Shown here piece after piece: positions 13,591 to 34,743 of a stretch of 55,718 nucleotides of DNA. The notes beneath the pieces are model-generated. The model did no database searches. It worked only from the letters and a program-made list of their open reading frames with translations, and was not told where the DNA came from. Position 1 is the stretch's first letter. Every line of letters begins with the position of its first letter. Both the position numbers and the translations under genes were made by a program. This DNA comes from Oscillospiraceae bacterium. Its GTDB lineage: Bacteria > Bacillota > Clostridia > Oscillospirales > Oscillospiraceae. Location of the stretch: NCBI GenBank assembly GCA_017545165.1, contig JAFWQQ010000042.1:1-55718 (forward strand). Reading direction: 5' to 3'.

Positions 13591-13754
13591 ATACTGATAC
13601 CTGATAGAAAGGTCGATCAAGATTTCCGAGCAGAATTTGCGCCAGACGAGACGAAGGCCGCAGAGCATAATGGAGATATATGGTCAAGGCCTTCAACGAA
13701 GGTTGGCACGAATTCTGCCGGAAAGATTCCGAGATTTCTATCAGATATCAGTAT
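13591..13754. repeat. Long hairpin element, copy A
   Basis: A 164-bp imperfect inverted repeat that can fold end to end. The outer arms ATACTGATA-(8 nt)-AAA and TTT-(8 nt)-TATCAGTAT match at 19 of 20 positions, the middle arms are CAGAATT/AATTCTG with GCCA/TGGC, and the inner arms GAAGGCC/GGCCTTC. The apex reads GCATAATGGAGATATATGG. A second copy at 34587-34743 has the same layout with different but still paired arm sequences. It lies between gerW and the pseudouridine synthase. It may be a structured RNA or a non-autonomous mobile palindrome. Confidence 0.75.
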
Positions 13755-13785
13755 AAGCACCGCCCAAGAGCCAGGCGGTGCTTAT
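13753..13785 (-). terminator. Hairpin downstream of gerW
   Basis: A 12-bp perfect stem ATAAGCACCGCC/GGCGGTGCTTAT with a 9-nt loop lies 18 nt after the gerW stop codon. The following T-tract is weak, so termination is plausible but not certain. Confidence 0.5.
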
Positions 13786-13803
13786 GGCGGCTTGATCCTC
13801 TTC

Positions 13804-14187
13804 TTACTTGTCCTGCTGTTTGTTGATAAAGGCGTCCACCTTGTCCATCACCTGGGGTACCAGGTCGATGATGCGGTCCACGGTGGTGCTGGCGGGCGGG
13901 GTGATGTTGATCATCCGGACGCTGCCCTCTTTGATCACCAGGAAGCCGATAGGCTCGATCTTCACGCCGGTGGCGTTGCCGCCGCCGTAGGGACGGCTGC
14001 CGGCCTTCTTGGGCGTGAACTCCACGCCGCCGCCGCCGAAGCCCACGCTGATGCGGGAGATGGGGACCAGGGTGATGCCGTCGGGCGTGTAGATGGGTTC
14101 GCCCACAACCTCGTCGACCTTGAGAATGTTCTTGACATTTTCCATGGTGGACTGCATGAGTTCACCGATCGGGTTGATGTTATCCAT
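13804..14187 (-). CDS. gerW: GerW/YtfJ-family sporulation protein
   Basis: The protein has 127 residues, a length typical of the GerW (YtfJ) family, which in Bacillus is made under sporulation control and needed for a germination response. The family's central run is present: YTPDGITLVPISRISVGF, a glycine-rich GFGGGG, and PIGFLVIKEGSVRMI. The start ATG 14187 overlaps the upstream DUF2953 gene by 8 nt, as in the ytfI-ytfJ pair of Bacillus subtilis. It is the last gene of the M50-scpA-scpB-DUF2953-gerW operon. A hairpin follows its stop. Its presence is evidence that the organism forms endospores. Confidence 0.93.
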   Translation of the reverse strand: MDNINPIGELMQSTMENVKNILKVDEVVGEPIYTPDGITLVPISRISVGFGGGGVEFTPKKAGSRPYGGGNATGVKIEPIGFLVIKEGSVRMINITPPASTTVDRIIDLVPQVMDKVDAFINKQQDK

Positions 14188-14953
14188 TTGCTGCCATCCT
14201 TTCCTCTTCCTGTATGTTTTCTGTATTTTCTTTCTGATCTGTTTCGGGAGCGGCCCCGGCCGCCGGAAGCTCTTCCGGAGCGGTCCCTGCCGCCTTCTGG
14301 GCCTTTTTCAGGGTCTTCGCCTCTTTCTTCTTCCTGCGCTTGCTGCGGATCAGGATCCGAAGCGCGCCGAAGGCGAGGCGGTTGACAACCCCGAGGATGC
14401 GCCAGAGCGTGATGGTCATGGCCAGGCCGAACTCCAAAAAGGTCTTGTCCGCCGTGAAATCCACGTCGGTCCAGACGCTGCAGTCCCGCACGTGAAAGCG
14501 CTTATGACACAGCGGCGCCAGGGTGGCCAGCACGCCGTTAAGCTTGCCGTAGGTCATGGCCGTGTCATAGGGATCGTCCCCCGCGGCCACATAGTGGAGC
14601 ACGAAGCGGTCCACATGCCAGGCGCGGCCGAATCTGCCGATGCCCCTGAGGGCCACCCGCGCCAGCTCCAGCAGCTCATCCCGATTGAAGGGCAGGGAGC
14701 GCTTTTTCTTGGGCTTGGGCTCGGGTTCCTCCCCCTCTTCCTCGGCCTGCGCCTTCTTTTTCTTCGTTTTCTTCTTTTCCTTGGGCTTTTTGGGCTTTTT
14801 CCCGGTCTTGGGCAGCAGCTGAATCAGGATGCAGCCGGCCTTGGCCGACAGGTGAAACTGCCCCCCCTCGTTGCCCAGATCCACTCCCAGGGGGAGGAAC
14901 AGGATCAGGGCCAGCAGGGCGAGAAAAACGCCGAGGATGATCCAACCAACCAA
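14180..14953 (-). CDS. DUF2953 (YtfI-like) membrane-associated protein
   Basis: The protein has 257 residues and one N-terminal membrane segment (about 3-24). A long lysine-rich and glutamate-rich low-complexity stretch (about 50-88) follows, then the DUF2953 core with HVDRFVLHYVAAGDDPYDTAMTYG-like sequence near 133-160 and FTADKTFLEFGL near 185, and a second basic tail. The pairing with gerW downstream is conserved in spore formers; the molecular role is unknown. It begins 3 nt after the scpB stop codon and overlaps gerW by 8 nt. Confidence 0.85.
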   Translation of the reverse strand: MVGWIILGVFLALLALILFLPLGVDLGNEGGQFHLSAKAGCILIQLLPKTGKKPKKPKEKKKTKKKKAQAEEEGEEPEPKPKKKRSLPFNRDELLELARVALRGIGRFGRAWHVDRFVLHYVAAGDDPYDTAMTYGKLNGVLATLAPLCHKRFHVRDCSVWTDVDFTADKTFLEFGLAMTITLWRILGVVNRLAFGALRILIRSKRRKKKEAKTLKKAQKAAGTAPEELPAAGAAPETDQKENTENIQEEERMAANG

Positions 14954-14956
14954 ATG

Positions 14957-15571
14957 TCATGCCTCCTTTGCCGGGTCCATGACCTCGCTGATGCGCAGCT
15001 GGTCGTCCCCGGCGGCATTTTGCAGTTCGTCGATGGCTTGCTGGAGCTTGTCCGCGCCCTCGCTCCCCGCCAGATCCGGCAGGGGCGGCAGCTGGGACAG
15101 CTCTGAGACGCCCATGGTGCGCAGGAACACGTCGGTAGTGCGGAAGAGGGCGGGACGGCCCGGAGCCTCCAGCCGACCGGCGACCTCAATGAGGCCCCGC
15201 TCCAGCAGGGAACTCACGGTATAGGAGCTGTCCACCCCCCGGACCCGGTCGATATAGGCCCGGGTCACCGGCTGGAAGTAGGCCACGATGGCCAGGGTCT
15301 CCAGCGCGCTCTGGGAGAGCATGGGGGGCCTGCGCTGCTCCAGGGCCTTGATCACATAGGGGGCGTAGTCCGGGTCGGAGCACATCTGCAGCTTGTCGTC
15401 CAGCCGCAGGATGCGGATGCCCCGTCCCTCCCGCTCATAGCGGTCGGCCAGCTCCGCGGCGATCTGGCCCAGCTCCGTCTCGTCGGTGTCCAGCACCAGG
15501 GACAGCCGGGCCAGGGGCACGCTCTCCCCCGCCGCAAACAGTATAGCCTCAAGGGCGGCAGAAATATCCAT
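14957..15571 (-). CDS. scpB: Segregation and condensation protein B
   Basis: The protein has 204 residues. ScpB is a dimeric winged-helix (kite) subunit of the SMC-ScpAB condensin, which compacts and segregates the chromosome. Seen here are the N-terminal LEAILFAAGESVPLARL, SQSALETLAIVAYFQPVTRAYIDRVRGVDS in the middle, and GLIEVAGRLEAPGRPALFRTT before an acidic tail. It starts 20 nt after scpA ends and lies directly upstream of DUF2953, the standard order in Clostridia. Confidence 0.95.
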   Translation of the reverse strand: MDISAALEAILFAAGESVPLARLSLVLDTDETELGQIAAELADRYEREGRGIRILRLDDKLQMCSDPDYAPYVIKALEQRRPPMLSQSALETLAIVAYFQPVTRAYIDRVRGVDSSYTVSSLLERGLIEVAGRLEAPGRPALFRTTDVFLRTMGVSELSQLPPLPDLAGSEGADKLQQAIDELQNAAGDDQLRISEVMDPAKEA

Positions 15572-15591
15572 ATCCTACACTATCCTCGAAA

Positions 15592-16380
15592 TCAGTCCTC
15601 GATTTTCTCCAGGAGCTCTTCCAGCTCGCCGCCCACGTACTCCAGGCGGTAGCCGGTCTCCTCCCGGTCGATATGCACGCTGCCCATGCTGCACAGCTCC
15701 AGCACCGACAGGAAGGTGGCCACCAGCTCCGAGCGGGTGGCGCAGCGCGCGTACAGCTCCTCCAGCATGGCGGGACCCAGGCGCAGCCGCTCCAGGAGCT
15801 CCCGGCTCTTGCTGCGCACGCTGTAGACGATGCGGCTGGGGATGGCGGCGCTGAGGCGCTCTTCCTCCTCCGGCACGCGCAGACCCCGGGAAAACACGGC
15901 CCGCAGCGCCTTCAGCAGGTCCACCGGATCGTGCCGGTATTCGTACTCCCTGGCGCTTTTCGGCATGGGCTCGGGCAGCTTGGGGAAGTACAGCAGCCCC
16001 CGCTCCGAGGCGGTTTTCAGCGCCGGCAGCACCTGGCGGACGGCGCCCAGGTTGTCCCGGGCCTTGAGCTGCTCCAGGGATTCCATCAGCACCTCCAGCT
16101 CTGAGACCTCTTCCTCGGCGCTGAGGAGCGTGCGGGTCTTGATATACAGCAGATGGGAGGCCATCTGCACGAATTCGCTGGCGATCTCCAGGTCCATGCT
16201 CTGCATCTCGTCCATCCAGGCCAGATACTGGTCCAGGATCAGGGAGATCTGCAGGTCCCGGATCTCGATCTTGTTCTTTTGCAGCAGCTGCAGGATCAGG
16301 CTCAGGGGCCCTTCAAAGTCCTGCAGCTCGTCCTTCTCGTGGACGATGCCCTGCAGATGAAAATTGGGGTTTTCCATCAC
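15592..16380 (-). CDS. scpA: Segregation and condensation protein A
   Basis: The protein has 262 residues. ScpA is the kleisin of the SMC condensin and bridges the SMC heads. The family opening FEGPLSLILQLLQKNKIEI lies near residues 24-42, followed by LDQYLAWMDEM and ASEFVQMASHLLYIKTRTLL. The C-terminal winged helix is intact (VATFLSVLELCSMGSV). Two adjacent Met codons could serve as start. The first overlaps the M50 protease stop by 4 nt (ATGA). Confidence 0.95.
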   Translation of the reverse strand: MMENPNFHLQGIVHEKDELQDFEGPLSLILQLLQKNKIEIRDLQISLILDQYLAWMDEMQSMDLEIASEFVQMASHLLYIKTRTLLSAEEEVSELEVLMESLEQLKARDNLGAVRQVLPALKTASERGLLYFPKLPEPMPKSAREYEYRHDPVDLLKALRAVFSRGLRVPEEEERLSAAIPSRIVYSVRSKSRELLERLRLGPAMLEELYARCATRSELVATFLSVLELCSMGSVHIDREETGYRLEYVGGELEELLEKIED

Positions 16381-17084
16381 GTACCAGCCAAAAAGATCAT
16401 TTTTCCCAGGGACAGGCCCCAGTTCGCCAAAGGAAGAAGCAGTTCCAGGCCATGGGTCACCAGCCAGGTCAGCGGCCTGCTCAGCAGGCCCGTATAGAGC
16501 AGCACCGCCAGAATGATGAAGCCGTAGCGCTCCACCTGCATCAGTTTCAGATAGCCCTCGTCGGACAGGAGGGAAAACAGGACCTTGGACCCGTCCAGCG
16601 GCGGGATGGGCAGGAGATTGAAGACGCCCATGGCCAGGCTCAGGTAATAAGTCGTCTGCAGCATTTCCAGCACGATCTGCGCCGCTTCCCCCTTCCCGTA
16701 AAGGCCAGGCAGAAACAGGCCATAGAGGAAAAGGAAGACCGCCGCGATGACCACGTTGCTCATAGGCCCCGCCAGAGCGGTGACGGCCATGCCCCGCTTG
16801 GGATTGCGGAATTTCATCATGTTCACCGGCACCGGCTTTGCATAGCCGAAGCGGAAGATCACCATCATCAGCAGACCCATGGGGTCCAGATGCTTGATGG
16901 GGTTCAGGGTGAGCCGTCCGGCGTTTTTGGCCGTGTCGTCTCCCAGCGCATAGGCCGTGAAGCCGTGAGCCAGTTCATGCAGTGTGATGCACAGCAGAGA
17001 CGGGATCACGCGAATCAGGATTTCCCGCAAGCCGCTGAAATCAAAGCCGCTCAGAATGTCGTTCCATGCGTTGATGTCCTTCAC
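16377..17084 (-). CDS. M50-family site-2 protease
   Basis: The protein has 235 residues and is an intramembrane zinc metalloprotease-like protein. The zinc motif HELAHGF appears at about 37-43 after the first membrane segment, followed by GRLTLNPIKHLDPMG and the third motif LPIPPLDGSKV. The usual four to six membrane helices are present. The start is GTG 17084, only about 9 nt from the predicted transcription start, so the mRNA may be nearly leaderless. It heads the scpA-scpB-DUF2953-gerW operon, a common arrangement in Clostridia. Its substrate is unknown; it differs from the SpoIVFB-type protein at 53845. Confidence 0.9.
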   Translation of the reverse strand: MKDINAWNDILSGFDFSGLREILIRVIPSLLCITLHELAHGFTAYALGDDTAKNAGRLTLNPIKHLDPMGLLMMVIFRFGYAKPVPVNMMKFRNPKRGMAVTALAGPMSNVVIAAVFLFLYGLFLPGLYGKGEAAQIVLEMLQTTYYLSLAMGVFNLLPIPPLDGSKVLFSLLSDEGYLKLMQVERYGFIILAVLLYTGLLSRPLTWLVTHGLELLLPLANWGLSLGKMIFLAGT

Positions 17085-17099
17085 CCCCAGAATATAGTT

Positions 17100-17128
17100 A
17101 TTTTACCAAACAATACAACAAAATACAA
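17100..17128 (-). promoter_or_regulatory. Promoter of the M50-scpAB-gerW operon
   Basis: On the minus strand TTGTAT (17128-17123) is followed after 17 nt by TAAAAT (17105-17100). The predicted start is about 9 nt from the GTG codon at 17084. Confidence 0.6.
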
Positions 17129-17413
17129 GAGCGATGTGAAAATGCGGCATACGGAACGCGGAATCCGCAGCTGATACGATCAACCAATCGAACAGCTTGA
17201 AATCTTTCGGCCGGAACCCGATCCCGGGATCCTTCGACTCGCCCCTTGGGCTCGCTCAGGATGACAAGCGGAGGAAGTACGCTCGCTGCAGGTGACAAAG
17301 TATTCGCTGCCGCAGTGCCCCCAAAAAACAAGGACGCAGCGAAATCGCTGCGTCCCTGCTCGTTTTGCGTTGTGGTTTCTTTTCGAATTCCGAACTCCGA
17401 ATTCCGGGTTGAC
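17129..17413. repeat. Intergenic region: dispersed repeat
   Basis: A member of the TCCTTCGACTCG...CGCTCAGGATGAC family lies at about 17229-17264; other copies are near 45780-45811 and 51235-51301. No gene is seen. A terminator hairpin lies at 17322-17355. Confidence 0.55.
17322..17355 (-). terminator. Terminator of the cohesin-dockerin gene
   Basis: A 10-bp perfect stem GGACGCAGCG/CGCTGCGTCC with an AAAT loop is followed on the minus strand by TTGTTTTTT. It stands about 58 nt after the stop codon at 17414. Confidence 0.8.
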
Positions 17414-20400
17414 TCAGTAGATCTCCACGTCGCCGTGTTTGAGATAGCGCTGCAGGCGGGTGGCGTCCTTGTTGCTGATCTTGCCGTCGCCGTTCACGTC
17501 CAATGCGGCTTCCACCACTTCCAGGTTCTGCCCCCTGAGATAGCGCTGCAGGCGGGTCAGATCCTTGTTGCTCACGATACCGTCGCCGTTGATATCGCCG
17601 GGGATATAGGTGAAGATCTCGATCTCGCCCGGCACCGTCTGGAAGGGCTGGTTCTCCTCGTCGGCGTTGTAGATATTGTCCTCATCATAGCTGACGGAGA
17701 TCTGGGTCGTGCCGGCAGCCGCGTCATCCTTCACCCGGAAGGTCAGAGTGGCGAAGACGCCGTCCTTGGTCTCGTTCTCTCGCGGATCGTCCGCATACCA
17801 GGTCAGAATCTCGCCGGCCTCTCCCAGGAAGGTGCCGCCGTATTCACCGGCCGTCACCGCCGTCCACTCCAGCACCGTCTCGTCATAATGCACGCTGATC
17901 TCAATGGAAACCACGCCAGGGTTCTCCTCGATCCGGACGGGGACTTGGATCTCCTGGCCGACGCGGACCCTGCCGCTGCCGACCACGAGCTTGGAGTCCG
18001 TCTCCGGCATGTTCTGCTCCCAGACCGCATACAGAGTCACATTGTCGGTGGGGGTGTAGCTGCCTGTTGTGCCGCTGGTGGCGCTGGCGCTGGTGGCCCA
18101 GCCCTTGAAGGTAAAGCCCTCGCGGGTGGGCGTGGGCAGCGTCACCGCCGCCGTTGTCGTGCTGCTGTTCCACTGGGCGTACAGCGTGGCCGCCGCGTTG
18201 GCCGTATAGCTGGCACCGGAGGCATAGGTCGTGCCGCTGCCGTTGGCCGCCGTGTTCCAGTTGTTGAACGTGTAGCTGGTAGTCCGTGCCGCCGTCAGGG
18301 TGTCCTGGCTCACGCTGCCGCCATTCGGGTCCAGAAGCACCGTATAGCTGCCTGCGGTTTCGTCGGCCCGGGTGGGCTGGATCGTCGACAGGGTCAGAGC
18401 CACGTCATGGGTCTTGGTCTGCGCCGCAGGAGCGCCGGTGCCGCCGTTGGCGTCGTAGGTGATCGCATAGCTGTTCGCTTCCCAGATAGCATACATGGTA
18501 AAGCTGCACGGACCGTCGATCCCTTCGGTCCATGATGTGTTGAACTCGAAGGAAAGGTCTTCGGGATATACTGTTGCCGTGATCCCGGCAGAATCGAGCT
18601 CCGCCTGCGTGAACCAGCCCTCAAATTCAACCGCATACTTAGCGTCGTTTTCCCGATATCCCAGCCAGCCGCGGAGACTGTAGCCATCCCTTGAAAACTG
18701 GCTTCCCGGGAATGTGATTTGGTCACCGAGAATGACCTGAACCGGATCAGCGCTACCGGCGCCGCCGTTGGGGTTAAAGCTGAACGTGGAGGTGTAAGAC
18801 TGCCAAATGGCATAGATGGTAAACGAATCGATCACGACACCGGATGCTTGACTCAGCCAGGAAGAGTCCACAGTCATTGTGAGATTCGGTGTGTAGATCT
18901 GTTTGACATAACCGTTTGCCGAAATCTCTGCCTCAGTAAACCAGCCAACATTCACCCAATTGCTGTCTGCCGCATACCACTTTTGATCTGCGGGGCGGAA
19001 CAGATGCCATCCCTGCAGGTAATATCCCGCTCTGTATACATAATTGGGCGAAATACTATATGTTCCGTTAAAGGCCGCCTGGAAAGACGATGTACTGGAT
19101 GTTCCTCCGTTTGCATTGATGTTGATCGTATAGGTGTTGGCCTGCCAGATGGCATACAGAGTTACGTTGCCGCTGGGCGTGTAACTTCCCGTCGTGCCGC
19201 TGGTCGCGCTGCTGCTGGTAGCCCACCCCTTGAAGGTGTATCCCGTTCTGGTAGGTGTGGGTAGGGTCACCGCCGCCGTGCTGGTGCTGCTGTTCCACTG
19301 AGCGTAGAGCGTCGCTGAGGCATTCACCGTGTAGCTGGCTCCCGGGGCGTAACTGAGACCGCTCCCATTGGATGACGTGTTCCAATTCTTGAAGCTGTAA
19401 CTGGTAGTCCTTGCTGCCGTCAGGCTCGTCGTGCTAACACTTCCGCCGTTAGCGTTCAGCGTCACGGTGTAGCTCCCTGCGGAGGAGCTTGCGCGAGAAG
19501 GTGTGGTGGAGGAGAGGGTCAGGGCCGTCGCATGGGCCTTGGTCTGTGTACTGGGGGCCCCTGTACCACCCGTTGCATTGTAGGAGATGCTACAGGAATA
19601 TGCTTCGCCGTTAATACTGTCCCAGTTATCTGAGGTGAGGAGAGACAAGGTCCCACGTGTTTGTCCGCCATAGGTCTGTCGGGCCGCGAGTTCTTGGAAA
19701 GTCAGTTCTCTCAAACCGACATAGTACTCCGGATCTGCTGTCCAGTTGCATTCATAGACTTCAAGCCCGGTCGGCGTGAGACTATATATTACCATACTGT
19801 GCTGTCGAACGTCTGTTCCCTTGTTGAATTGGAGGATATCTCCCGGCCTTGCGCTTTTCAGCAGGTCTTTGACGTTGGCTTCAGTACAGGTGGCGACCTG
19901 GCCGACTGTCACCATGCCGCTTTCGCTCTCGCCTGCGTAGTTCCACCAGCGATACGTTTTTCCCGAGACGGTAGAATTGCCGAAAACGCGGTAGATAACC
20001 ATGCCAGCGAACCCGTAACTCTTGACAGCGTCATCAAAGCTGTCTGTCCAGTAAGTACCGCTGGGGAATTCGGCAGCGACCTGGCTGAGCTTCTCCGTTA
20101 CCGAGGCTGATGTCGGAGTGGAAGACGTTGTATAATTCGGCCTTCCGACCCAATAGATATAATGCGAGGATTCGTCCTTGTCAATTCCGGTCGAGCGATA
20201 GTACAAGTTCCAAGTGACCCGGTCATTATCATTCCCTTCAACAGTATAAATATAGTTGCTATCGACCGCGTAAACAATACCAACATGGTCATATCCGTAA
20301 TCGCCGCCGTTCGTTTTTCCGTTGTTTTCGATAAATACGATATCGCCTTTTTGTGGGGTTACCGCGGTAAGGCGATAACTGGGGATACCGAAACCATCTG

Positions 20401-22087
20401 GATCAGCGACAGCATACTTTTTCACGATGGAGGTCGGGATCCCAGCCTGATTTGCACACCATGACACAAAGATTGCGCACCAGGCCGCGGATGTATCGGA
20501 GCCGTAGTACCAGTAGTTATACTTGCAATGGTTCTGGTCGTCGGAAGAGTAAGCGGCTTCGGTGTACCCGATCTGAGTGTAGGCGACCTCTGCGATGTCT
20601 GTTGCCTGGTTCCCTGTATTTGTCCAGGTGTTAGGATAGTTCGTCGGGAAAGATGACGAAGCCCAAACAGCATACAGAGTTTCATTTGCGTTATTGCTGT
20701 ATAGATCTCCAGGTTGGTATTGCGCAGTGGTAGCATCATTGACTGTCGACCAACCGACAAATGAATAACCCGAACGAGTCGGAATAACTGAACTTAAGCA
20801 GAGATCGACATCGTGCGTTTTGGTTTGACTGGCAGGGCTGCCGACCCCGCCGTTAGCGTCATAGGTTATGGTGTATTGGACATTTCCTACACTAAACCAA
20901 GACGATAAGGACACCTGCTTTCCAGAGGAATCCGTTGCTTCAACAAAATAATTGTAGAACCCAGCGCTGAGTTGCCCGAAGAGAAAATCATCATTCAGTC
21001 CATCACTCTGAATATTATACGTTGTTTTATTCCAACTTTTGTTGTAAGAAAAATAGCTTTGTCCATTACTATCTTTGATATATGCATTTACCGATACTAT
21101 TGTATTGGGGGAGGAGAAGATTCCTCTTAAGCCAAAATGAGATAGAGCATCATAATGACCATTAGGATAAACAGCCCCGGAGAGGGTTAGCTCTGTTGCC
21201 TGAACTTCAGTTTCGAGTGTGTACCCTTTAATGGGTGCGCCCCAGCCTCGATATGTATATCCGTTCGAATTAACAGAAGATATCGTGCTGACTTTAATCG
21301 AACTAAAAGCGTGGATCACTTTTCCATCACCGATAGAAAGACCCACGTGACCTGCGCTGTTGTAGGGATCCGAGGATTTATACCAGAATACCAACGCGCC
21401 TCTCGGGGGATCTGAATCAACATGTGTAATGAGCGCATCGCCCATCTGCCGTGCGGTCGCATATGATGAGTTGCCGATCCCCGCTCCTTTGTTGTATGCG
21501 GCCCATACGAAGGCTGCACAATATCCTTTCCAGTAATTCGGTCTGGTCTCCCGTTCATTGTATGCGTAAGCAATAGCTTCTTCTATATCTACAGATGAAA
21601 TGGTACCACCTTTGGCTGCGCCTAGATCGTTCTGTGGAGTTTCTAACCAGGAATAGTACGATTCCCACCCCTCATCAATAACGGATGGTGAACTGGTATC
21701 TGCAAGACTAAGATTGATTGAGAGGGTGAATGCTTCATTCTCCGGAGATGACTCGACAACAAAGCCTCTATTTGTGATAGAGATATACCCCTCGCGTTCC
21801 GCATCATACAGGTATTCTCCCGGCCAGAGGAGGTAGCTGCCATCCTCCTCCGGGTCGATGATCTCGGGTTCGCCGTTTTCGTCCAGATTCATCGGACTAT
21901 AAACCGTAATCACGGCATCTGCCGGGTCGCAGATGAACTCTACCCGGACCAGTCCGTCGCAGTCATCCTCCTCCGGGAGCGGGGCGGGCTCTTCCGCGTC
22001 CTCCGCCAGCGCGGCGGCGGGGAAGAAGCTCAGCACCAGCACCAGGCAGAGCAGCAGCGACAGCAGTTTCTTGGCTGTGTTCTTCAT
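17414..22087 (-). CDS. Multidomain secreted protein: three NlpC/CHAP-like domains, InlB repeats, cohesin, dockerin
   Basis: The protein has 1557 residues. The start ATG 22087 is fixed by AAGGAG and a signal peptide (residues 1-28). A first NlpC/P60-like domain (about 165-290) has candidate catalytic C190 and H247. An InlB/Listeria-Bacteroides repeat (about 403-476) precedes a second CHAP-like domain (about 490-650, C537 and H601). A third amidase-like domain (about 660-820) keeps H763 but seems to have Ser at the cysteine position. More InlB repeats follow. A cohesin-like domain occupies about 1364-1491 and a complete two-repeat type I dockerin 1494-1557 (GDINGDG, NKDLTRLQRYL, NGDGKISNKDATRLQRYL). 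It may cut peptidoglycan and scaffold other secreted proteins. Domain families are recognised; the assembly role is inferred. Confidence 0.9.
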   Translation of the reverse strand: MKNTAKKLLSLLLCLVLVLSFFPAAALAEDAEEPAPLPEEDDCDGLVRVEFICDPADAVITVYSPMNLDENGEPEIIDPEEDGSYLLWPGEYLYDAEREGYISITNRGFVVESSPENEAFTLSINLSLADTSSPSVIDEGWESYYSWLETPQNDLGAAKGGTISSVDIEEAIAYAYNERETRPNYWKGYCAAFVWAAYNKGAGIGNSSYATARQMGDALITHVDSDPPRGALVFWYKSSDPYNSAGHVGLSIGDGKVIHAFSSIKVSTISSVNSNGYTYRGWGAPIKGYTLETEVQATELTLSGAVYPNGHYDALSHFGLRGIFSSPNTIVSVNAYIKDSNGQSYFSYNKSWNKTTYNIQSDGLNDDFLFGQLSAGFYNYFVEATDSSGKQVSLSSWFSVGNVQYTITYDANGGVGSPASQTKTHDVDLCLSSVIPTRSGYSFVGWSTVNDATTAQYQPGDLYSNNANETLYAVWASSSFPTNYPNTWTNTGNQATDIAEVAYTQIGYTEAAYSSDDQNHCKYNYWYYGSDTSAAWCAIFVSWCANQAGIPTSIVKKYAVADPDGFGIPSYRLTAVTPQKGDIVFIENNGKTNGGDYGYDHVGIVYAVDSNYIYTVEGNDNDRVTWNLYYRSTGIDKDESSHYIYWVGRPNYTTSSTPTSASVTEKLSQVAAEFPSGTYWTDSFDDAVKSYGFAGMVIYRVFGNSTVSGKTYRWWNYAGESESGMVTVGQVATCTEANVKDLLKSARPGDILQFNKGTDVRQHSMVIYSLTPTGLEVYECNWTADPEYYVGLRELTFQELAARQTYGGQTRGTLSLLTSDNWDSINGEAYSCSISYNATGGTGAPSTQTKAHATALTLSSTTPSRASSSAGSYTVTLNANGGSVSTTSLTAARTTSYSFKNWNTSSNGSGLSYAPGASYTVNASATLYAQWNSSTSTAAVTLPTPTRTGYTFKGWATSSSATSGTTGSYTPSGNVTLYAIWQANTYTININANGGTSSTSSFQAAFNGTYSISPNYVYRAGYYLQGWHLFRPADQKWYAADSNWVNVGWFTEAEISANGYVKQIYTPNLTMTVDSSWLSQASGVVIDSFTIYAIWQSYTSTFSFNPNGGAGSADPVQVILGDQITFPGSQFSRDGYSLRGWLGYRENDAKYAVEFEGWFTQAELDSAGITATVYPEDLSFEFNTSWTEGIDGPCSFTMYAIWEANSYAITYDANGGTGAPAAQTKTHDVALTLSTIQPTRADETAGSYTVLLDPNGGSVSQDTLTAARTTSYTFNNWNTAANGSGTTYASGASYTANAAATLYAQWNSSTTTAAVTLPTPTREGFTFKGWATSASATSGTTGSYTPTDNVTLYAVWEQNMPETDSKLVVGSGRVRVGQEIQVPVRIEENPGVVSIEISVHYDETVLEWTAVTAGEYGGTFLGEAGEILTWYADDPRENETKDGVFATLTFRVKDDAAAGTTQISVSYDEDNIYNADEENQPFQTVPGEIEIFTYIPGDINGDGIVSNKDLTRLQRYLRGQNLEVVEAALDVNGDGKISNKDATRLQRYLKHGDVEIY

Positions 22088-22134
22088 ACGCTTCTCCTTC
22101 AAAATCATATTCTGGGCTGCACCAAGCTGTTTTG

Positions 22135-24089: not shown

Positions 24090-24130
24090 AGCGAAAACTC
24101 CTTTCGGATGATGGATCATAGCTTTGCGTA

Positions 24131-26689: not shown

Positions 26690-26715
26690 AGGGGTCCCTC
26701 CTTTTCTATGTTGCA

Positions 26716-26935: not shown

Positions 26936-26949
26936 GACCAGCGCCGCGG

Positions 26950-27306: not shown

Positions 27307-27321
27307 AACGATGAACTCCTT

Positions 27322-27856
27322 CCGTCACGGCGCTTGCGGGGGATGCGCCGCGCCACCTCCCTCTGAGAGGGAGGCAGAGAACTCCTTCCGTCATCCGGCT
27401 TGCGTGAGACGCCGGATGCCACACCCAAGACCCTCTGAGAGGGAGGCAGAGAACTCCTTCCGTCACGGCGCTTGCGTGAGACGCGCCGTGCCACCTCCCT
27501 CAAAGAGGGAGGCAGAGAACTCCTTTCGTCACGGCGCTTGCGGGGAACGCGCCGCGCCACCTCCCTCAAAGAGGGAGGCAAGGACTCCTTCCGTCACGGC
27601 GCTTGCGGGGGACGCGCCGCGCCACCTCCCTCAAAGAGGGAGGCAAGGACTCCTTTCGTCACGGCACTTGCGGGGGATGCGCCGTGCCACACCCAAGGCC
27701 CTCTGAGAGGGAGGCGGAGAACTCCTTTCGTCACGGCGCTTGCGTGAGACGCGCCGCGCCACACCCAAGACCCTCTGAGAGGGAGGCAGAGAACTCCTTT
27801 CGTCACGGCGCTTGCGGGGGACGCGCCGTGCCATCTCCCTCAAAGAGGGAGGCAAG
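27322..27856 (+). repeat. Tandem array of eight two-hairpin units
   Basis: Unit starts are 27322, 27388, 27460, 27526, 27591, 27656, 27728 and 27800, so the period is 65-66 or 72 bp. Each unit has hairpin 1 (arms CACGGCGC/GCGCCGTG or CATCCGGC/GCCGGATG around TTGCG-GAC), hairpin 2 (CCTCCCTC/GAGGGAGG or CCCTC/GAGGG) and a tail AACTCCTT or GACTCCTT. The 72-bp form carries ACCCAAGACC between the hairpins. It is not a CRISPR, because there are no unrelated spacers. Confidence 0.9.
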
Positions 27857-27884
27857 ATCACGTCCGCCACTCTGGGGCGGAGAA

Positions 27885-27987
27885 CAAAAAACGCACGACT
27901 TGTGCCCAAGCCGTGCCGAAACAGACCGCGGAGATGCCAGCCGGTCCCGACCGCTGTTGACAAGTCCATTCGATGTTATATCCTTCC
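27885..27987 (-). ncRNA. Candidate small RNA of about 100 nt
   Basis: A self-contained transcription unit lies between engB and the repeat array. A promoter at 28022-27994 is followed about 100 nt later by a strong intrinsic terminator: stem GCACGGCTTG/CAAGTCGTGC with a GGCA loop, then GTTTTTTG on the minus strand. An internal GACCG/CGGTC stem is possible. A 43-codon frame starts just after the -10 but has no ribosome binding site, so an RNA product is favoured. I do not match it to a known RNA family. Confidence 0.5.
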
Positions 27988-27993
27988 ATTTTC

Positions 27994-28022
27994 AGTATAC
28001 CCGAGGCCGCGGGAAAAAGCAA
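27994..28022 (-). promoter_or_regulatory. Promoter of the candidate small RNA
   Basis: On the minus strand TTGCTT (28022-28017) and TATACT (27999-27994) are separated by exactly 17 nt, with no recognised gene downstream. Confidence 0.55.
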
Positions 28023-28058
28023 GAGCATCTTGCGCCCCCGCGGGAGGAGAAACAGAAC

Positions 28059-28089
28059 GATCCCCCGCTTCCCATCGGAAGGGGGGATC
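28059..28089 (-). terminator. Terminator after engB
   Basis: The stem GATCCCCC and TTCC against GGAA and GGGGGATC (with one-base bulges) around a GATG-type loop is followed on the minus strand by TTCTGTTTCTCC. It lies just after the engB stop codon at 28098. Confidence 0.65.
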
Positions 28090-28097
28090 CCTGTCGA

Positions 28098-28688
28098 TCA
28101 CAGCATTTTCATGAGCTCCGCCAGGAGCTGCTCCCGGCCCTGGCCCTTCTCCGCGGAAAAGGGGATCAGGGGCACACTCTCCGGCAGGGCGAGCGTCTCG
28201 CGGATCAGGGCCAGATTCGGCTCGATCTCGCTCTTTTTCAGCTTGTCCAGCTTGTTGGCTACCACCACGAAGGCCTTGCCGCTGTCCAGGAACCACTTCG
28301 CCATGGTGCCGTCGTCCGCCGTGGGCTTGTGCCGGGCGTCCACGATCAGCACCCCCAGGTCAAAGCTCCCGGCATCGGCAAAGAAGTCCTCCATCAGCTT
28401 GCCCCAGCGGTCCCGCTCCGCCTGGGAGACCTTGGCAAAGCCGTAGCCCGGCAGGTCCACCAGATAGAGCTTCCCGTCGAGGAAGAAATAGTTCACATGG
28501 ACGGTCTTCCCCGGCTGGGCGCCCACCCGGGCGAAGTTTTTCCGGTTCAGCAGGCGGTTGATCACCGAGGACTTGCCCACGTTGGATTTCCCCGCGAAAG
28601 CGGCCTTGGGCACGCTGCTGCGGATGAACTGGCTGGGCGCGGCGGCGGATTTCACGAACTCCGCCTTGTTCACATTCAGCGTCGCCAT
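28098..28688 (-). CDS. engB: Ribosome-biogenesis GTPase EngB/YsxC
   Basis: The protein has 196 residues. EngB is an essential GTPase that acts in assembly of the large ribosomal subunit. The P-loop AGKSNVGKSS lies near residues 31-40, the G3 motif is DLPGYGFAKV, and the G4 motif NKLDKLKK is near 140. It begins 3 nt after lon ends, the same lon-ysxC order as in Bacillus subtilis, and is the last gene of the lon unit, followed by a hairpin terminator. Confidence 0.95.
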   Translation of the reverse strand: MATLNVNKAEFVKSAAAPSQFIRSSVPKAAFAGKSNVGKSSVINRLLNRKNFARVGAQPGKTVHVNYFFLDGKLYLVDLPGYGFAKVSQAERDRWGKLMEDFFADAGSFDLGVLIVDARHKPTADDGTMAKWFLDSGKAFVVVANKLDKLKKSEIEPNLALIRETLALPESVPLIPFSAEKGQGREQLLAELMKML

Positions 28689-28691
28689 GGC

Positions 28692-31091
28692 TCACACCCG
28701 GATGGCTTTCCGGCTCTTGGGCGCGGGGACGGGAGAAGGCAGCGGCATGGTCTCGTGCAGCTCGCCCCGCAGCAGGGCCACGTCCAGGGCCGCGTCCGCA
28801 TGGTCCACCGGCACGAAGTGCAGCGCTGCGCGGACGGTCTGGTCGATCTCCTTCAGGTCCGGCTCGTTCTCCGCGGGGATGATGACGGTCTTGACCCCCG
28901 CCCGGAGGGCGGCCATGGTCTTCTCCCGCAGGCCGCCGATGGGCAGGATCCGCCCCCGCAGGGTGATTTCGCCGGTCATGGCCACGTCGCCGCGCACCGG
29001 GGCGCCGGTGAGGGCGGAGATCAGGGCCATGGTCACGGTGATGCCGGCGGAGGGGCCGTCCTTGGGGACCGCGCCCTCGGGGAAGTGGATATGGATGTCG
29101 CAATTCTTGTAGAAGTCCGGGTCGATGCCCAGGGCGTCCACCCGGGAGCGGATGTAGCTCACGGCAGCCCGGGCGGATTCCTTCATCACGTCGCCCAGGT
29201 TGCCGGTGAGCTCCAGCTTGCCGCTGCCGGGCAGCACGGCCACCTCCACGTCCAGCACCTCGCCGCCCACCTCGGTGTAGGCCAGGCCCCGGACCAGGCC
29301 CACCTCGGGCCGGGTGCGCAGAGCGTCGGGCTTGAACTTTGCCGGGCCCAGCAGCTCCTCCAGCCCTCCGGCCTTCACGCTGAGGGACTTGTATTTGCCC
29401 TCGGCGATGCCGGAGGCCGCCTTGCGGCAGACCGCGGCCAGCTGACGCTCCAGCACCCGCACGCCGGATTCCCGGGTGTAGCTGCGGATGATCTCCCGGA
29501 CGGCGGCGTCCTCCAGCTTCAGCTGCACGGCCTTGAGTCCGTGCTTTTTCCGCTGCTTGGGGATCAGATGGCGCCTGGCGATCTGCAGCTTTTCCTCGTC
29601 GGTGTAGCTGGGCAGCTCGATGACCTCCATCCGGTCCAGCAGGGCCCGGGGGATCGTCGAGGTGGTGTTGGCGGTGGTGATGAAGAAGACCTGGGACAGG
29701 TCAAAGGGCAGCTCCAGGAAGTGGTCCCGGAACGTGGCGTTCTGCTCCGGGTCCAGGGCCTCCAGCAGGGCGGCGCTGGGGTCGCCCCGGTAGTCGGAGC
29801 CCAGCTTGTCGATCTCGTCCAGCACCATCAGGGGGTTGCAGCTGCCCGCCTGCTGGATGCCGGCGATGATGCGCCCGGGCATGGAGCCGATGTAGGTCTT
29901 GCGGTGGCCCCGGATCTCGGCCTCGTCGTGGATGCCGCCCAGGGACACCCGCACCAGCTTGCGCCCGGTGGCGTGGGCCACGCTCATGGCGATGCTTGTC
30001 TTGCCGGTGCCCGGAGGTCCCACCAGGCACAGCAGGCCGCCCTTGACCTCGGGCGAGAGCTGCTTGACGGCCAGGTACTCCAGGATGCGCTCCTTCACCT
30101 TCTCCAGGCCGAAGTGCTCCTCGTCCAGGATCTTGCGGGCCTTGGCGATGTCCACGGTCTCCTGGGTCTTCTTGCCCCAGGGCAGCTCCAGGCAGGTGTC
30201 CAGATAGCTGCGGATCACCGCGGCCTCGGCGGAGCCGAAGGGCTGCTTCTGCAGGCGGCCCAGCTCTTTGTTCAGCTTCCTGGTGACCTCCTCGGGGCAG
30301 CTGAGGGCCGCGATCTTCTGGCGCAGCTCCTCATAGTCGTCGGAATAGCCGTCCTCGCCCAGCTCGGCCTGGATGATCTTCATCTCTTCCCGCAGGAAGT
30401 ACTCCCGCTGGCTGCGGTTCATGGCCTCCTGGGTCTGGTCGTTGAGCTCCTTCTCGATGCTCAGGACGTTCAGCTCCTTGTTCATCAGCCGCACCAGCAG
30501 GGCCAGGCGGCGGGACGGGGAGCTCTCCTCCAGGAGCATCTGCTTGTCTTCCAGGTGCAGGTGCACGTTCTGGGCAATGTAGTCGGACACATAGGCCGGG
30601 TTGGGATTGGCCAGCACGTTCAGGATCTGCTCCCCCGGCATCTCCGGGTTCAGCTGCAGATACTCCTGAAAGAGAGACACGCAGCTGCGCAGCAGGGCCT
30701 CGGTGCGGGGCGTGCCGCTCTTCTCCTCCTTGTCCGGCCGGGGCCGCAGGAGGGCCGTATGTCCCTTGGGATCCATGTGCAGCGCCTGGGTCTCGGCCCG
30801 GTACAGGCCCTCCACCATCACGCGGCAGGCGCCGCCCTGGCTCTGGCGCAGCATCTGCCGGATCCGGCAGACGGTGCCCACGCCGTAGAGATCCGCCGCC
30901 TCGGGCAGATCCACGGTCAGATCCTTCTGGGGCACCAGATAGATCATTTGATTGCGCTTTTCCGCGGCGCTCAGGGCCCCCAGAGAGGCGCTGCGCTCCA
31001 CATCGAAGGTCAGCAGCATCCCGGGGAACACGTTCAGGCCACGCAGGGCCAGCAGCGGCAGGCGCAGGGTTTCGTTGTTCTGTTCGCTCAT
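28692..31091 (-). CDS. lon: ATP-dependent protease Lon
   Basis: The protein has 799 residues, the full length of bacterial LonA, a cytoplasmic AAA+ protease that degrades damaged and regulatory proteins. Visible are the N-terminal substrate domain (LPLLALRGLNVFPGMLL), the Walker A motif GPPGTGKTS, a Walker B segment (NPLMVLDEIDKLG) and the C-terminal serine-lysine dyad S681 (DGPSAGIT) and K724 (GGLREK). It lies 33 nt downstream of clpX and 3 nt upstream of engB. No CtsR-type or CIRCE-type operator was recognised nearby. Confidence 0.97.
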   Translation of the reverse strand: MSEQNNETLRLPLLALRGLNVFPGMLLTFDVERSASLGALSAAEKRNQMIYLVPQKDLTVDLPEAADLYGVGTVCRIRQMLRQSQGGACRVMVEGLYRAETQALHMDPKGHTALLRPRPDKEEKSGTPRTEALLRSCVSLFQEYLQLNPEMPGEQILNVLANPNPAYVSDYIAQNVHLHLEDKQMLLEESSPSRRLALLVRLMNKELNVLSIEKELNDQTQEAMNRSQREYFLREEMKIIQAELGEDGYSDDYEELRQKIAALSCPEEVTRKLNKELGRLQKQPFGSAEAAVIRSYLDTCLELPWGKKTQETVDIAKARKILDEEHFGLEKVKERILEYLAVKQLSPEVKGGLLCLVGPPGTGKTSIAMSVAHATGRKLVRVSLGGIHDEAEIRGHRKTYIGSMPGRIIAGIQQAGSCNPLMVLDEIDKLGSDYRGDPSAALLEALDPEQNATFRDHFLELPFDLSQVFFITTANTTSTIPRALLDRMEVIELPSYTDEEKLQIARRHLIPKQRKKHGLKAVQLKLEDAAVREIIRSYTRESGVRVLERQLAAVCRKAASGIAEGKYKSLSVKAGGLEELLGPAKFKPDALRTRPEVGLVRGLAYTEVGGEVLDVEVAVLPGSGKLELTGNLGDVMKESARAAVSYIRSRVDALGIDPDFYKNCDIHIHFPEGAVPKDGPSAGITVTMALISALTGAPVRGDVAMTGEITLRGRILPIGGLREKTMAALRAGVKTVIIPAENEPDLKEIDQTVRAALHFVPVDHADAALDVALLRGELHETMPLPSPVPAPKSRKAIRV

Positions 31092-31124
31092 AGCTTCCTC
31101 CTTTCCGGAGAGACGGCGCTTGGC

Positions 31125-32384
31125 TTATTCTTCCTGCTCTCTGCGCAGGATGGTGGGCTCGGCCTCCCCCTTGACGCAGGCGGCGGTGATGATCACCTTT
31201 TCCACCGTGGGGTCGGAGGGGATCTCGTACATCAGCTCGGTCATGACGCTCTCCATCACGCTGCGCAGGCCCCGGGCGCCGATCTTGCGCTCGATGGCCC
31301 TGTCGGCGATGGCCTCCAGGGCGGCGGGCTCATACTCCAGCTCCACCCCGTCGTAGCGCAGCAGAGTCTGATACTGCTTGGTCATGGCGTTCTTTGGCTC
31401 CTGCAGGATGCGCACCAGATCGTCCCGGGTCAGGGAATCCAGGGAGGCCACCACGGGCAGCCGCCCGATGAGCTCGGGGATAATGCCGAATTTCAGCAGG
31501 TCGTGCTGCTGGACCTGGGAGAGGATCTGGCCCACGTCCCGCTCCGCGCTGCTCTTGATCTCGGCACCGAAGCCCATGGTCTTCTTGTCGGTGCGCTTCT
31601 CGATGATCTTGTCCAGACCGTCGAAGGCGCCGCCGCAGATGAAAAGGATGTTGGAGGTGTCCACGTGGATGAACTCCTGCTGGGGGTGCTTGCGCCCGCC
31701 CTGGGGCGGGACGTTGGCAATGGTGCCCTCCAGCAACTTCAGCAGCGCCTGCTGCACGCCCTCGCCGGACACGTCCCGGGTGATGGAGGTGTTCTCGCTC
31801 TTGCGGGCGATCTTGTCGATCTCGTCGATGTAGATGATGCCCCTCTGGGCCCGCTCCACGTCGAAATCCGCCGCCTGCAGCAGCTTCAGGATCACGTTCT
31901 CCACGTCCTCGCCCACATAGCCGGCCTCGGTGAGGGTGGTGGCGTCGGCAATGGCGAAGGGAACGTCCAGCATCTTCGCCATGGTCTGGGCAAAGAGAGT
32001 CTTGCCGCTGCCGGTGGGACCGATGAGCAGGATGTTGCTCTTCTGCAGCTCCACATTGTCCTTCCCGCCGTGGAGGATGCGCTTGTAGTGGTTGTAGACC
32101 GCCACGCTCAGCACGATCTTGGCCCGCTCCTGGCCGATGACGTAATCGTCCAGATTCGCCTTGATCTCCTTGGGCCGGGGCAGCTTGTCAAGCACCAGAG
32201 GCCGGCCGTTTTTCCCTGTGACGGCGGCCGCGGAGGGAGCCAGCCGGTCTACGATGCTCATGCACATGCGCACGCACTCGTCGCAGATATAGCTGCCGTT
32301 GCCGGCGATGAGCCGGTTCACCTGGCCCTGGGGCTTGCCGCAGAAGGAGCAGCGGATGCTTTTTCTCGTATCGTCAGATGCCAT
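31125..32384 (-). CDS. clpX: ClpX, ATPase subunit of the Clp protease
   Basis: The protein has 419 residues. ClpX unfolds substrates and feeds them to ClpP. The N-terminal zinc-binding domain has C12, C15, C34 and C37. The AAA+ module has Walker A GPTGSGKT near residue 120, Walker [12 protein letters not shown], and a ClpP-contacting loop region followed by the sensor and C-terminal domain ([13 protein letters not shown]). It stands 71 nt downstream of clpP, the usual partner, and upstream of lon. Confidence 0.97.
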
Positions 32385-32455
32385 TTTCTTCTCCTAACTC
32401 TGGGATGGAAACGCGGGACGGACTGACGCCCGCCCCGTTTCGATCGTTCTGTATT

Positions 32456-33037
32456 TCAGCGCTTGTAGATCACCTTGTCGATGAGGCCGTATTCCCGGGC
32501 CTCCTCGGCAGTGAGCCAGCGGTCCCGCTCGGAGTCGGCCTTGACCTCTTCGGGCGTCTTGCCGGTGTTCCCGGCCAGGATCTTGTTGAGGCGCTCCTTG
32601 ATCTTCAGGAAGTGCTCCACGTCGATCTCCATGTCCGTGACCTTGCCCTGGGTGCCGGCGGAGGGCTGGTGGATCATGATCTCCGCGTTGGGCAGGGCGA
32701 TGCGCTTGCCCTTGGCGCCGGAGGACAGCAGGAAGGCGCCCATGGAGGCGGCCATGCCCACGCAGATGGTGGAGACGTCAGGCTTGATGTACTGCATGGT
32801 GTCATAGATGGCCATGCCGGCGCTGACGCTGCCGCCGGGGCTGTTGATATAAAACTGAATGTCCTTGTCGGGGTCCTGGGCCTCCAGGTACAGAAGCTGG
32901 GCCACGATCAGGCTTGCGGTGGTGTCGTTGACCTCCTCCGACAGCATGACGATGCGGTCGTTCAGCAGGCGGGAAAAAATATCGTAGGACCGCTCGCCGC
33001 GGCTGGTCTGTTCGACAACATAGGGGACTAAACTCAT
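32456..33037 (-). CDS. clpP: ClpP, proteolytic subunit of the Clp protease
   Basis: The protein has 193 residues. It is a serine peptidase that forms a two-ring tetradecamer. The start ATG 33037 ([19 protein letters not shown]) follows GAAAGGAG and matches the family; an upstream in-frame Met lacks such a site. The catalytic triad is S98 (GMAASMGAF), H123 (IMIHQPSAG) and D172 (ERDRWLT). It sits between tig and clpX in the conserved order. Confidence 0.97.
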
Positions 33038-33105
33038 TGGTAAAACTCTCCTTTCCTGGTCAAAAACGCGCTTATCCAAGAGAGCATATCCGCTTGGGGA
33101 ATTCT

Positions 33106-34431
33106 TTATTCCTCGGTCTCCTCGGCGGGGGCCTCGGCGGGAGTCTCCGGCTCGCCGATCTCGGCGGAGTTCATGATGATCTCGGTGGCCTTCTCCTTCA
33201 GATACTCGTTGCGGATGGTGTCCAGGCCGAAGTACTCCTTGATCTCCTCGGGCTTGGCGTTGACGCCCTCGGCGACCTTCTTGAGGTACTCCTCGGTCTC
33301 CTCCTCGGTGAGCTCGAGGTTCTCCGCCTTGGCGACAGCCTCCAGCAACAGCTCCGTGCGGACCTGGTACTGGGCGGAGGGCAGGATGCTCTGGTTCATG
33401 GTCTCCGCGTCGATGCCCATCATGCGCACCAGCTTCTCCAGCTCCACGTTCCGGTCGGTGAGGCCAAAGTTGGCGGCGTAGTTGCGGATGATCTCCTCGG
33501 CCTTTTCGTGGATCATGGCGTCGGGCACGTCGCAGCTCATGTTGTCGGCCGCCTGCTTCATAATGAGGCTGCGGAAAGCGGTCTCGGCCTGCTGCTCGTA
33601 CTTCTCCTGCAGCTTCTTGCGGATGTCGGCCTTGTACTCGTCCAGGGTGTCGAAGCCCTGGTCGCCGGCGAACTCATCGTCCAGCTCGGGCAGCTCGGGG
33701 AAGGTGATGGAATTGAGCTTGACCTTGAAGACCACGGCCTTGCCGGCCAGATTCTCCACATAGCTCTCGGGGAAGGTAATGTCCAGATCCTTCTCCTCGC
33801 CGATCTGCATGCCGGCCACCTGCTCCTCGAAGCCGGGCACGAAGGAATTGGAGCCCAGCTCCAGATCGTAGCCCTCGGCCTTGCCGCCGTCGAAGCGCTC
33901 GCCGTTGAGGAAGCCGTCAAAGTCGATGTTGACGGTGTCGCCCATCTGGGCGGGGCGGTCGTCCACGGAGACCTTGCGGGCGTTCTGCTTGCGGGCTTTC
34001 TCCAGCTCCTCAGCCACTTCCTCGTCGGAGGCCTCGGTCACGTCCTTGGGGGCCTTCAGGCCCTTGTACTGCCCCAGGGTCACCTCGGGATAGAGGGAGA
34101 CGGAGAAGGTGTAGCGCACGGTGCGCTCGTCGGTGACTTCCACGTTGTTGATCGCGGGCTGGCCGACGATCTTCAGCTCACCCTCGCTGACGCCCTGCTC
34201 AAAGGCCTTGGGGGCCAGCTCGTCCATGGCGTCCTGGTAGAAGACTTCCTTGCCGTAGAAATTCTCCACAATGGCGCGGGAGACATGGCCCTTGCGGAAG
34301 CCGGGGATATTGATGTTTTTCTTATTCTTCAGGTAGGCGCCCTGGACAGCCTCCTCGAACTCGGCGGCGTCGGACTCCACCATGAACAGAGCGGTGTTGT
34401 TTTCTTTCTTTTCCACATTCTTGAGAATCAT
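33106..34431 (-). CDS. tig: Trigger factor
   Basis: The protein has 441 residues. It is a ribosome-bound chaperone with peptidyl-prolyl isomerase activity. The ribosome-contact motif GFRKGH lies in the N-terminal domain ([15 protein letters not shown], near residues 44-58), the FKBP-like middle domain includes [16 protein letters not shown], and the long alpha-helical C-terminal domain ends in a Glu/Pro/Ala-rich tail. ATG 34431 is preferred over the longer frame because AGGAGGA precedes it. It heads the tig-clpP-clpX cluster and has a promoter at 34521-34549. Confidence 0.96.
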
Positions 34432-34520
34432 GCTTGCTTTCCTCCTATATTTGATCACGAATCATACAAAAAAAGCGTTTCCTTTTCGCTTTCTATTCCG
34501 TGACTGACAGACAGCGTCTT

Positions 34521-34549
34521 ATAATATCAGAATCCCGCGACAAAATCAA
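34521..34549 (-). promoter_or_regulatory. Promoter of the tig-clp cluster
   Basis: On the minus strand TTGATT (34549-34544) is followed after 17 nt by TATTAT (34526-34521). The leader of about 80 nt contains a small hairpin AAAGCG/CGCTTT followed by a T-run at about 34468-34492, which might act as an attenuator. Confidence 0.6.
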
Positions 34550-34586
34550 TGTCTTTTTCTTGAATATTCCGGCATTTTCCCTTATG

Positions 34587-34743
34587 CTATTCACCGATAA
34601 AAAGCTTTAGATTATTACCGAGTCAGAATCGTGTCATGCGAGGCGGCGGGCGCAGGGCATAATGGACATATATGGCCAAGGCCGCCAACGAAGCATGGCG
34701 CGATTCTGGCCGGTAAAAAATGAAGGGTTTTATCGGTGGATAG
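34587..34743. repeat. Long hairpin element, copy B
   Basis: A 157-bp imperfect inverted repeat. The outer arms CTATTCACCGATAAAA and TTTTATCGGTGGATAG match at 15 of 16 positions, the middle arms are CAGAATCG/CGATTCTG with CATGC/GCATG, and the inner arms GGCGGC/GCCGCC. The apex GCATAATGGACATATATGG and the AACGAAG on the 3' side are shared with copy A at 13591-13754, while the stems differ. It starts 2 bp after the stop codon of the phosphoesterase gene and lies upstream of the tig promoter. Confidence 0.75.

Follow-up and report, generated by a model that had tools for sequence, protein, structure and literature searches.

Locus and features

The window analysed here is the whole of a 55,718-nucleotide (nt) stretch of DNA from an Oscillospiraceae bacterium (NCBI GenBank assembly GCA_017545165.1, contig JAFWQQ010000042.1, forward strand), and contains two copies of a long hairpin repeat, one between the genes for an S4-domain pseudouridine synthase and the sporulation protein YtfJ and the other between those for trigger factor and a metallophosphoesterase. 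Here, we describe this repeat as a non-autonomous transposon of about 161 bp, a miniature inverted-repeat transposable element (MITE) built in two layers, with outer arms like those of IS630-family insertion sequences (ISs) around a conserved hairpin core that most likely acts as RNA; we put the probability of this reading at about 0.7. The four flanking genes all lie on the minus strand (in-house gene caller) with Pfam matches in the same frame. An initial annotation, made from the letters of the window alone, had claimed two hairpins that fold end to end at these places, and a covariance model (R1) returns both with the boundaries below, where strands are those of the window and R3 is a model of the core discussed further on.

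13592..13753, + strand: MITE copy 1, 162 nt, TACTGATACC...GATATCAGTA (R1 match, E 4.5e-37; fold z -9.5)
34585..34745, + strand: MITE copy 2, 161 nt, TGCTATTCACC...GGTGGATAGTA (R1 match, E 8.6e-40; fold z -9.9)
13633..13715, + strand: structured core of copy 1 (R3 66.2 bits, E 6.6e-16)
34625..34707, + strand: structured core of copy 2 (R3 75.9 bits, E 1.2e-18; one row of R3, L054, is a copy from the subfamily of copy 2)
13665..13683, + strand: apex of copy 1, GCATAATGGAGATATATGG (apex pattern match)
34657..34675, + strand: apex of copy 2, GCATAATGGACATATATGG (apex pattern match)
13694..13701, + strand: internal loop 1 of copy 1, 3' strand, CAACGAAG (from the sequence; loop covariation in the family)
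34686..34693, + strand: internal loop 1 of copy 2, 3' strand, CAACGAAG (from the sequence; loop covariation in the family)
13754..13756, + strand: TAA flank of copy 1, with AAA at 13589-13591; duplication not intact
34746..34748: TCA flank of copy 2, with TTA at 34582-34584; duplication not intact
12842..13561, - strand: S4-domain pseudouridine synthase, neighbour of copy 1 (gene call and Pfam)
13804..14187, - strand: sporulation protein YtfJ, neighbour of copy 1 (gene call and Pfam)
33106..34431, - strand: trigger factor, neighbour of copy 2 (gene call and Pfam)
34746..35435, - strand: metallophosphoesterase, neighbour of copy 2 (gene call and Pfam)
28689..28694, - strand: empty orthologous site, made up of the stop codon of lon (28692-28694) and the three bases that precede the start codon of a ysxC-like GTPase gene

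With short flanks, the plus strand folds at -81.4 kcal/mol for copy 1 and -94.2 kcal/mol for copy 2 (z -9.5 and -9.9), and the minus strand at -84.6 and -64.4 kcal/mol (z -7.3 and -4.7); for each of these four folds, 0 of 200 shuffled sequences were as stable. The apex pattern, allowing up to 3 mismatches, matches twice in the window and not once in 100 shuffles of it.

A mobile repeat family

The repeat is short, with no room for a transposase, and is present in many copies. The draft genome of the host, a gut bacterium, is 2.40 Mb long and holds 55 matches to the apex pattern and none to the reversed pattern, and R1 gives 95 matches among 150 scored candidates, a count in which some copies appear twice through a weaker match on their opposite strand. 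Many copies lie at contig ends of the host assembly, as expected because repeats break short-read assembly. Among the fetched loci, 87 of 111 apex matches with enough flank have clear ends (the other 24, with unclear ends, were left out), and 78 of the 87 copies are 161 or 162 nt long. At least five sequence subfamilies of equal length differ in their stems. Across ten copies, 29 of the 57 predicted pairs survive a change of both partners in one copy or more, in line with the stem covariation that the initial annotation had seen between two. The apex it had called nearly unchanged proves constant only inside subfamilies, differing between subfamilies (the apex GAATAATGGAGATATATTT is also common in the host genome) and between genera. 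A coding role of the apex, suggested by a Shine-Dalgarno-like GGAG followed by ATG, was set aside, the ATG being missing from the GAATAATGGAGATATATTT subfamily and from other genera.

Within the genus, a group of uncultured Oscillospiraceae, R1 matches 25 of 37 genomes, and it matches 4 of 23 others of the order. Matches per genus genome range from none to at least 49 (43 in G020, 27 in G016), the larger numbers being lower bounds because 49 candidates were scored in each genome. When named genomes were scanned with the pattern, at least 112 stretches were found; among the matches listed (80 titles) are uncultured Clostridia, Clostridiales, Eubacteriales, Ruminococcaceae and Oscillospiraceae, many from ruminant samples, with RGIG titles that name goat and roe deer stomachs and RUG titles that we take to stand for 'rumen uncultured genome'. 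Copy 2 has no blastn match among plasmids and phages.

The element begins with TACTA and ends with the inverted repeat TAGTA, and is flanked by TNA. In a test of 40 copies (13 of 53 elements, namely 12 from distant genomes and L138, were excluded before the count), 19 carry the same 3-mer on both flanks, where shuffling gives 7.06 on average and 0 of 20000 shuffles reach 19, and the next 3-mers outward agree in none. In the larger set the two flanking 3-mers are identical in 50 of 87 copies, and where both flanks read TNA the same N is found in 49 of 68; the way ends were called in this set biases the outer places towards T and A, though not towards the same N. A nested insertion of one copy within another is seen at G000:C56:16200-16796 (L042), and comparison with uninterrupted relatives shows TCA on both sides of the insertion. 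An empty site lies in the window itself, where the interval between the lon stop codon and the ysxC-like start codon is uninterrupted; a relative (L205) carries the element there, flanked by TAA and TCA, with 352 of 405 identities across the junction and both genes identified by Pfam. This is the one clear case among 87 copies, from a local BLAST search against the fetched loci only. Duplication of TA, considered in view of IS630, was discarded for this genus on the evidence of that nested insertion and of the statistics of N; in another genus, G363, TA stands on both sides of 8 of 10 copies. The element is thus a MITE, of a known general kind, with a duplication unusual for its transposase family.

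A candidate partner is found on host contig C52, where an end-motif search located two element-like ends about 1.1 kb apart around an IS with TACTA ends and TTA on both flanks. The IS has two overlapping open reading frames with HTH_33/HTH_29 and DDE_3 domains; against the NCBIfam IS630 model (NF033545, cut-off 100) the second scores 133.3 bits and the first 61.7, below the cut-off. Each of the three DDE_3 loci of the host has at least one TACTA end, and two run off a contig end. Compared with the best of 174 MITE arms, IS ends agree at 14 of 14 positions (C52, L011) or 27 of 30 (C72, L247 and L220), a comparison made without a chance control, and different IS ends have different best arms. 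The starts of contigs C72 and C112 (L173, L174) carry ends of ISs of a second type, whose protein has a different start; the rest of the IS is absent from these contigs. In other genera, DDE_3 was not found in 7 of 8 genomes tried, seven core-bearing genomes being without a match, and end-motif searches in G363 and G373, read by eye, gave no obvious IS-sized pair.

The initial annotation had offered as one possibility a palindromic mobile element recognised at its apex. Mobility is borne out; recognition at the apex is not, given IS630-like ends, TNA duplications and an apex that varies.

Insertion sites

Genes around the copies were called by codon usage, seeded from lon and neighbouring genes. 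When flanks are joined, the junction lies within a predicted gene in 3 of 86 cases (L059, L236, L271; one of the 87 copies was dropped as a duplicate), and an adjacent reading frame enters the element in 7 of 86. In 31 of 86 copies a neighbouring gene has the TNA as its stop codon, against 379 of 3247 intergenic TNA sites (11.7%) of the same loci (binomial p 4e-9; this and the p-values below are rough, the copies being related and the genomes overlapping). Where TAA or TGA is duplicated the stop codon is kept, and the protein is therefore left whole. Copy 2 is an insertion of this type in antisense orientation, its TCA flank (34746..34748) being on the minus strand the TGA stop codon of the metallophosphoesterase gene. 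Convergent genes surround 38 of 84 copies, against 78 of 582 neighbouring gene pairs. Copies at stop codons are antisense to that gene in 22 cases and sense in 9 (p 0.03), and the median distance to the gene end is 71.5 nt on the sense side and 7 nt on the antisense side (p 0.008). This gap would fit a cost of placing the plus-strand hairpin directly in a message, such as an RNase III substrate might have.

Structured core

The inner 80 nt form a core whose covariation goes beyond what fitting a transposase explains. In 19 sequences, 91.0% of cells hold standard pairs, against 70.4% (standard deviation 1.3) with shuffled partners and at most 42.6% when the pairing is slid, and both sides have changed in 21 of 27 pairs against 14.3 with shuffling; the weakest measure, further pair types, was matched by 9 of 500 shuffles. 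A set of 31 Bacillota sequences, whose alignment is fitted to the structure, has changes on both sides in 27 of 27 pairs (19.5 shuffled) and a covariation score of 0.706 (0.214 shuffled, at most 0.129 slid). In these 31 rows 75.1% of cells are paired in the stem that separates the two loops, and about 90% in the other stems.

Two unpaired parts are conserved, 5' AAGGC opposite 3' AACGMA and 5' CGCAG opposite 3' CAAGG. One pair of loop positions reads G.A in 39, A.C in 35, A.A in 4 and G.C in 1 of 86 copies of the genus (others 2, motif unmatched 5), and so covaries without Watson-Crick pairing, clearly in the genus, where the copies are related by descent, and weakly beyond it.

The folded strand can be told from non-complementary pairs: opposed positions hold 225 G.T against 90 A.C in 63 copies of 161 nt, and the excess of G.T therefore points to a single folded strand. 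The plus strand is the more stable in 86 of 87 copies, by 13.7 kcal/mol on average, and in 19 of 23 distant elements (of 27 listed), where the strand was chosen by the model and the result is partly circular. We take this strand to act probably as RNA rather than single-stranded DNA, RNA being the simpler reading of the folding calculations. Of the selected RNA fold in the initial annotation, the core thus retains the marks of a selected one-strand fold, and the covariation of the outer arms is explained by the transposase. That annotation had named a match to an IS end as evidence against its proposal; such a match is true of the outer arms, and the covariation of the inner core survives it.

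Model R2 matches 15 of 299 genomes sampled over the phylum. Model R3, built from the 31 Bacillota rows alone, matches 36 of 398 Bacillota genomes in 29 of 271 genera, and 23 of the 36 contributed no row to it. The arms around distant cores are unlike TACTA ends (CTAGTGCCCTGTCAACC, TAGGGCGTGTCTGA and others) and fall into several unrelated types.

Relation to known repeats

A scan of the window with 4227 Rfam families at gathering scores matched only a tRNA, and on the element permissive thresholds gave weak matches only, the best being MIR2933 on L107 (30.4 bits, gathering score 70). The initial annotation had recognised no described family; this holds for Rfam, where none comes near its gathering score on the element, and gives way at the core, which is matched in the Correia/NEMIS repeat. 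Among the papers covered by the literature searches, none describes the element or joins Correia to Bacillota. A guessed identity with 'skipping-rope' found no support in the Rfam scan or the literature.

Neisserial Correia elements have the ends TATAGTGGATTAA. A consensus of the Correia repeat matches a copy in an N. gonorrhoeae record at 99% identity. In a comparison chosen post hoc, R3, which contains no proteobacterial sequence, scores 33.0 bits (E 1.8e-7) and 30.9 bits (E 7e-7) on the two Correia copies tried, both at the right place and strand, and R2 scores 20.7 and 22.2 bits. The likeness extends to general character, Correia/CREE/NEMIS also being a short hairpin repeat with mobile-element traits, and to the order of parts in the core, ACAAGGCG - stem - CGCAG - apex - CAAGG - stem - CAACG. 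By this resemblance in sequence and fold the core links the element to Correia, and either homology or convergence may account for it. The two differ in their ends, TATAGTGGATTAA with TA at the termini (PMC2229807) against TACTA with TNA here, and in phylum. According to a 2009 paper (PMC2649163), longer CREE carry an IHF site, unlike the element here, the CREE stem-loop in mRNA is bound by RNase III, its ends deciding between cleavage and protection, and how CREE are mobilised had not then been established. A central NEMIS core of 46 bp was recovered in other work (PMC2267715), in keeping with a conserved centre. Two N. gonorrhoeae records filed as plasmids (L302 and L304; NZ_CP119140.1 and NZ_CP119142.1), of about 2.17 Mb each, look chromosome-like in size and repeat content.

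A repeat on the megaplasmid of Cupriavidus metallidurans CH34, found at 16 places in the record by blastn, shares the core match (R3 42.4 bits, E 3.9e-10) and differs from the TACTA ends in its arms; blastn relatives of this repeat occur in Eleftheria and Paraburkholderia replicons (NZ_CP106952.1, NZ_CP024940.1, NZ_AP023183.1 and others). The ERIC repeat of enterobacteria is likewise a long hairpin, with an AAGGC / AACGCA-like loop seen by eye only, and its membership was rejected when neither R2 nor R3 matched the element in the one ERIC copy tried (L140). IS630-family ISs and their MITEs, such as RUP of pneumococcus, are alike in kind, the element having terminal inverted repeats in common with the IS630-type locus of the host genome, and unlike it in duplicating TA and not the 3-bp TNA.

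Interpretation and alternatives

In the two-layer reading, the outer arms are terminal inverted repeats that resemble the ends of the host's IS630-family ISs, and an IS630-type transposase supplied in trans would recognise both ends, insert at TNA and duplicate 3 bp; the arms would change together because both must fit one transposase. The inner 80 nt would be a conserved hairpin formed by the plus strand, probably as RNA, in which two internal loops are fixed and the stems are free to covary. By analogy with Correia, a sense transcript would be a double-stranded RNA that RNase III, or a host factor equivalent to it, binds or cuts, and a copy read in sense may alter the stability of the host mRNA; such an effect would explain the mostly antisense placement directly at stop codons.

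Several points weigh against this reading. The duplication is TNA, the C52 IS itself having TTA on both sides, and TA is typical of IS630. The flanking 3-mers are unequal in 37 of 87 copies, including both window copies (AAA/TAA and TTA/TCA) and the copy at the empty site, for which recombination, misassembly at repeats and age are possible reasons. DDE_3 was detected in no more than 5 of the 41 genomes of the genus, in 3 of them above the cut-off, and not in G020 or G016 with their 43 and 27 R1 matches, and in the four of these 5 other than the host it lies at loci with no nearby TACTA end; draft assemblies lose repeated ISs, a possible reason for missing DDE_3. With its flanks, copy 1 is slightly more stable on the minus strand (-84.6 against -81.4 kcal/mol), the variable pair 16-146 reverses the trend in opposed positions (A.C 29, G.T 11), and DNA parameters give the same strand bias in 87 of 87 copies. 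In the 31 distant rows the loop pair reads A.C in 13, A.A in 8, G.A in 6 and G.C in none (no motif in 4). The calibration of the Correia comparison is rough, and with default filters in a 106-kb search R2 let the given Correia copy miss E 0.01.

An ordinary IS630 MITE, whose arms match only because a transposase has to bind each end and whose inner palindrome is carried along with no RNA role, would account for the IS630-like ends and for a palindromy common among MITEs, and intergenic placement needs no function; we think it unlikely, since the inner stems covary across genera with unrelated arms, the unpaired loops are conserved with G.A/A.C covariation in the genus, one strand is favoured, and the same core occurs in Correia. 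Less probable again is a single-stranded DNA hairpin (like REP/RAYT, IS200/IS605 or attC) moved by a tyrosine enzyme that recognises the fold. Some weight stays with it because the strand-specific fold appears under DNA parameters too, and the host genome has two weak Y1_Tnp (PF01797) loci (G000:C27:59113-59412, L332, and G000:C106:238-471, L333). No convincing element end lies near them, the best being, at one of the two, a match with 2 mismatches, and against such a substrate stand inverted-repeat ends common with an IS of DDE type and 3-bp duplications.

The covariation might instead be mutational, with template switching between the arms during replication copying changes from one arm to the other. 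Long near-perfect arms would favour this, and copies inside a subfamily are near-uniform; it should, however, erase G.T pairs and mismatched loops, yet both persist over many genera, and we give it little credence. A stable, non-mobile family of non-coding RNA genes, such as small RNAs or cis-regulators, would fit a conserved covarying fold near housekeeping genes, and is the least credible of these explanations, given match counts from none to at least 49 between genomes of one genus, the duplications, empty site and nested insertion, and the lack of any Rfam family near its gathering score on the element.

Going beyond the two-layer reading, we tentatively suggest, at somewhat less than even odds, that the 80-nt core, hitherto noticed just locally as 'the Correia core', is a portable RNA module present in bacteria of at least two phyla and carried inside MITEs with unrelated ends (TACTA/TNA, CTAG-TGCCCTGT, TA-GGGCGTGTCTGA and Correia). 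It would be kept since one folded strand could serve the element whatever transposase moves it, for example by attracting a conserved host factor such as RNase III and thereby making insertions in transcripts tolerable or keeping them under control. In the literature covered, Correia, ERIC and comparable repeats are treated as separate families, and a core with model matches in 29 of 271 sampled Bacillota genera and two Betaproteobacteria would make many such repeats one testable class, with a candidate kind of transposase and a precise fold to mutate. The 86 insertions, 31 of them on stop codons, are also a natural experiment in placing a mobile hairpin beside bacterial transcription units.

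Further observations

Distant core copies occur in some further settings. A match to the xerDC RNA (RF03062; L101, 1962-2084) of 64.1 bits, under the gathering score of 72.5, lies about 300 bases from a distant hairpin copy. Genome G080 has three places (C4:138364-138555, C9:95865-96056 and C9:31786-31975) where two core hairpins face each other as an inverted pair, with about 34 bases between them.

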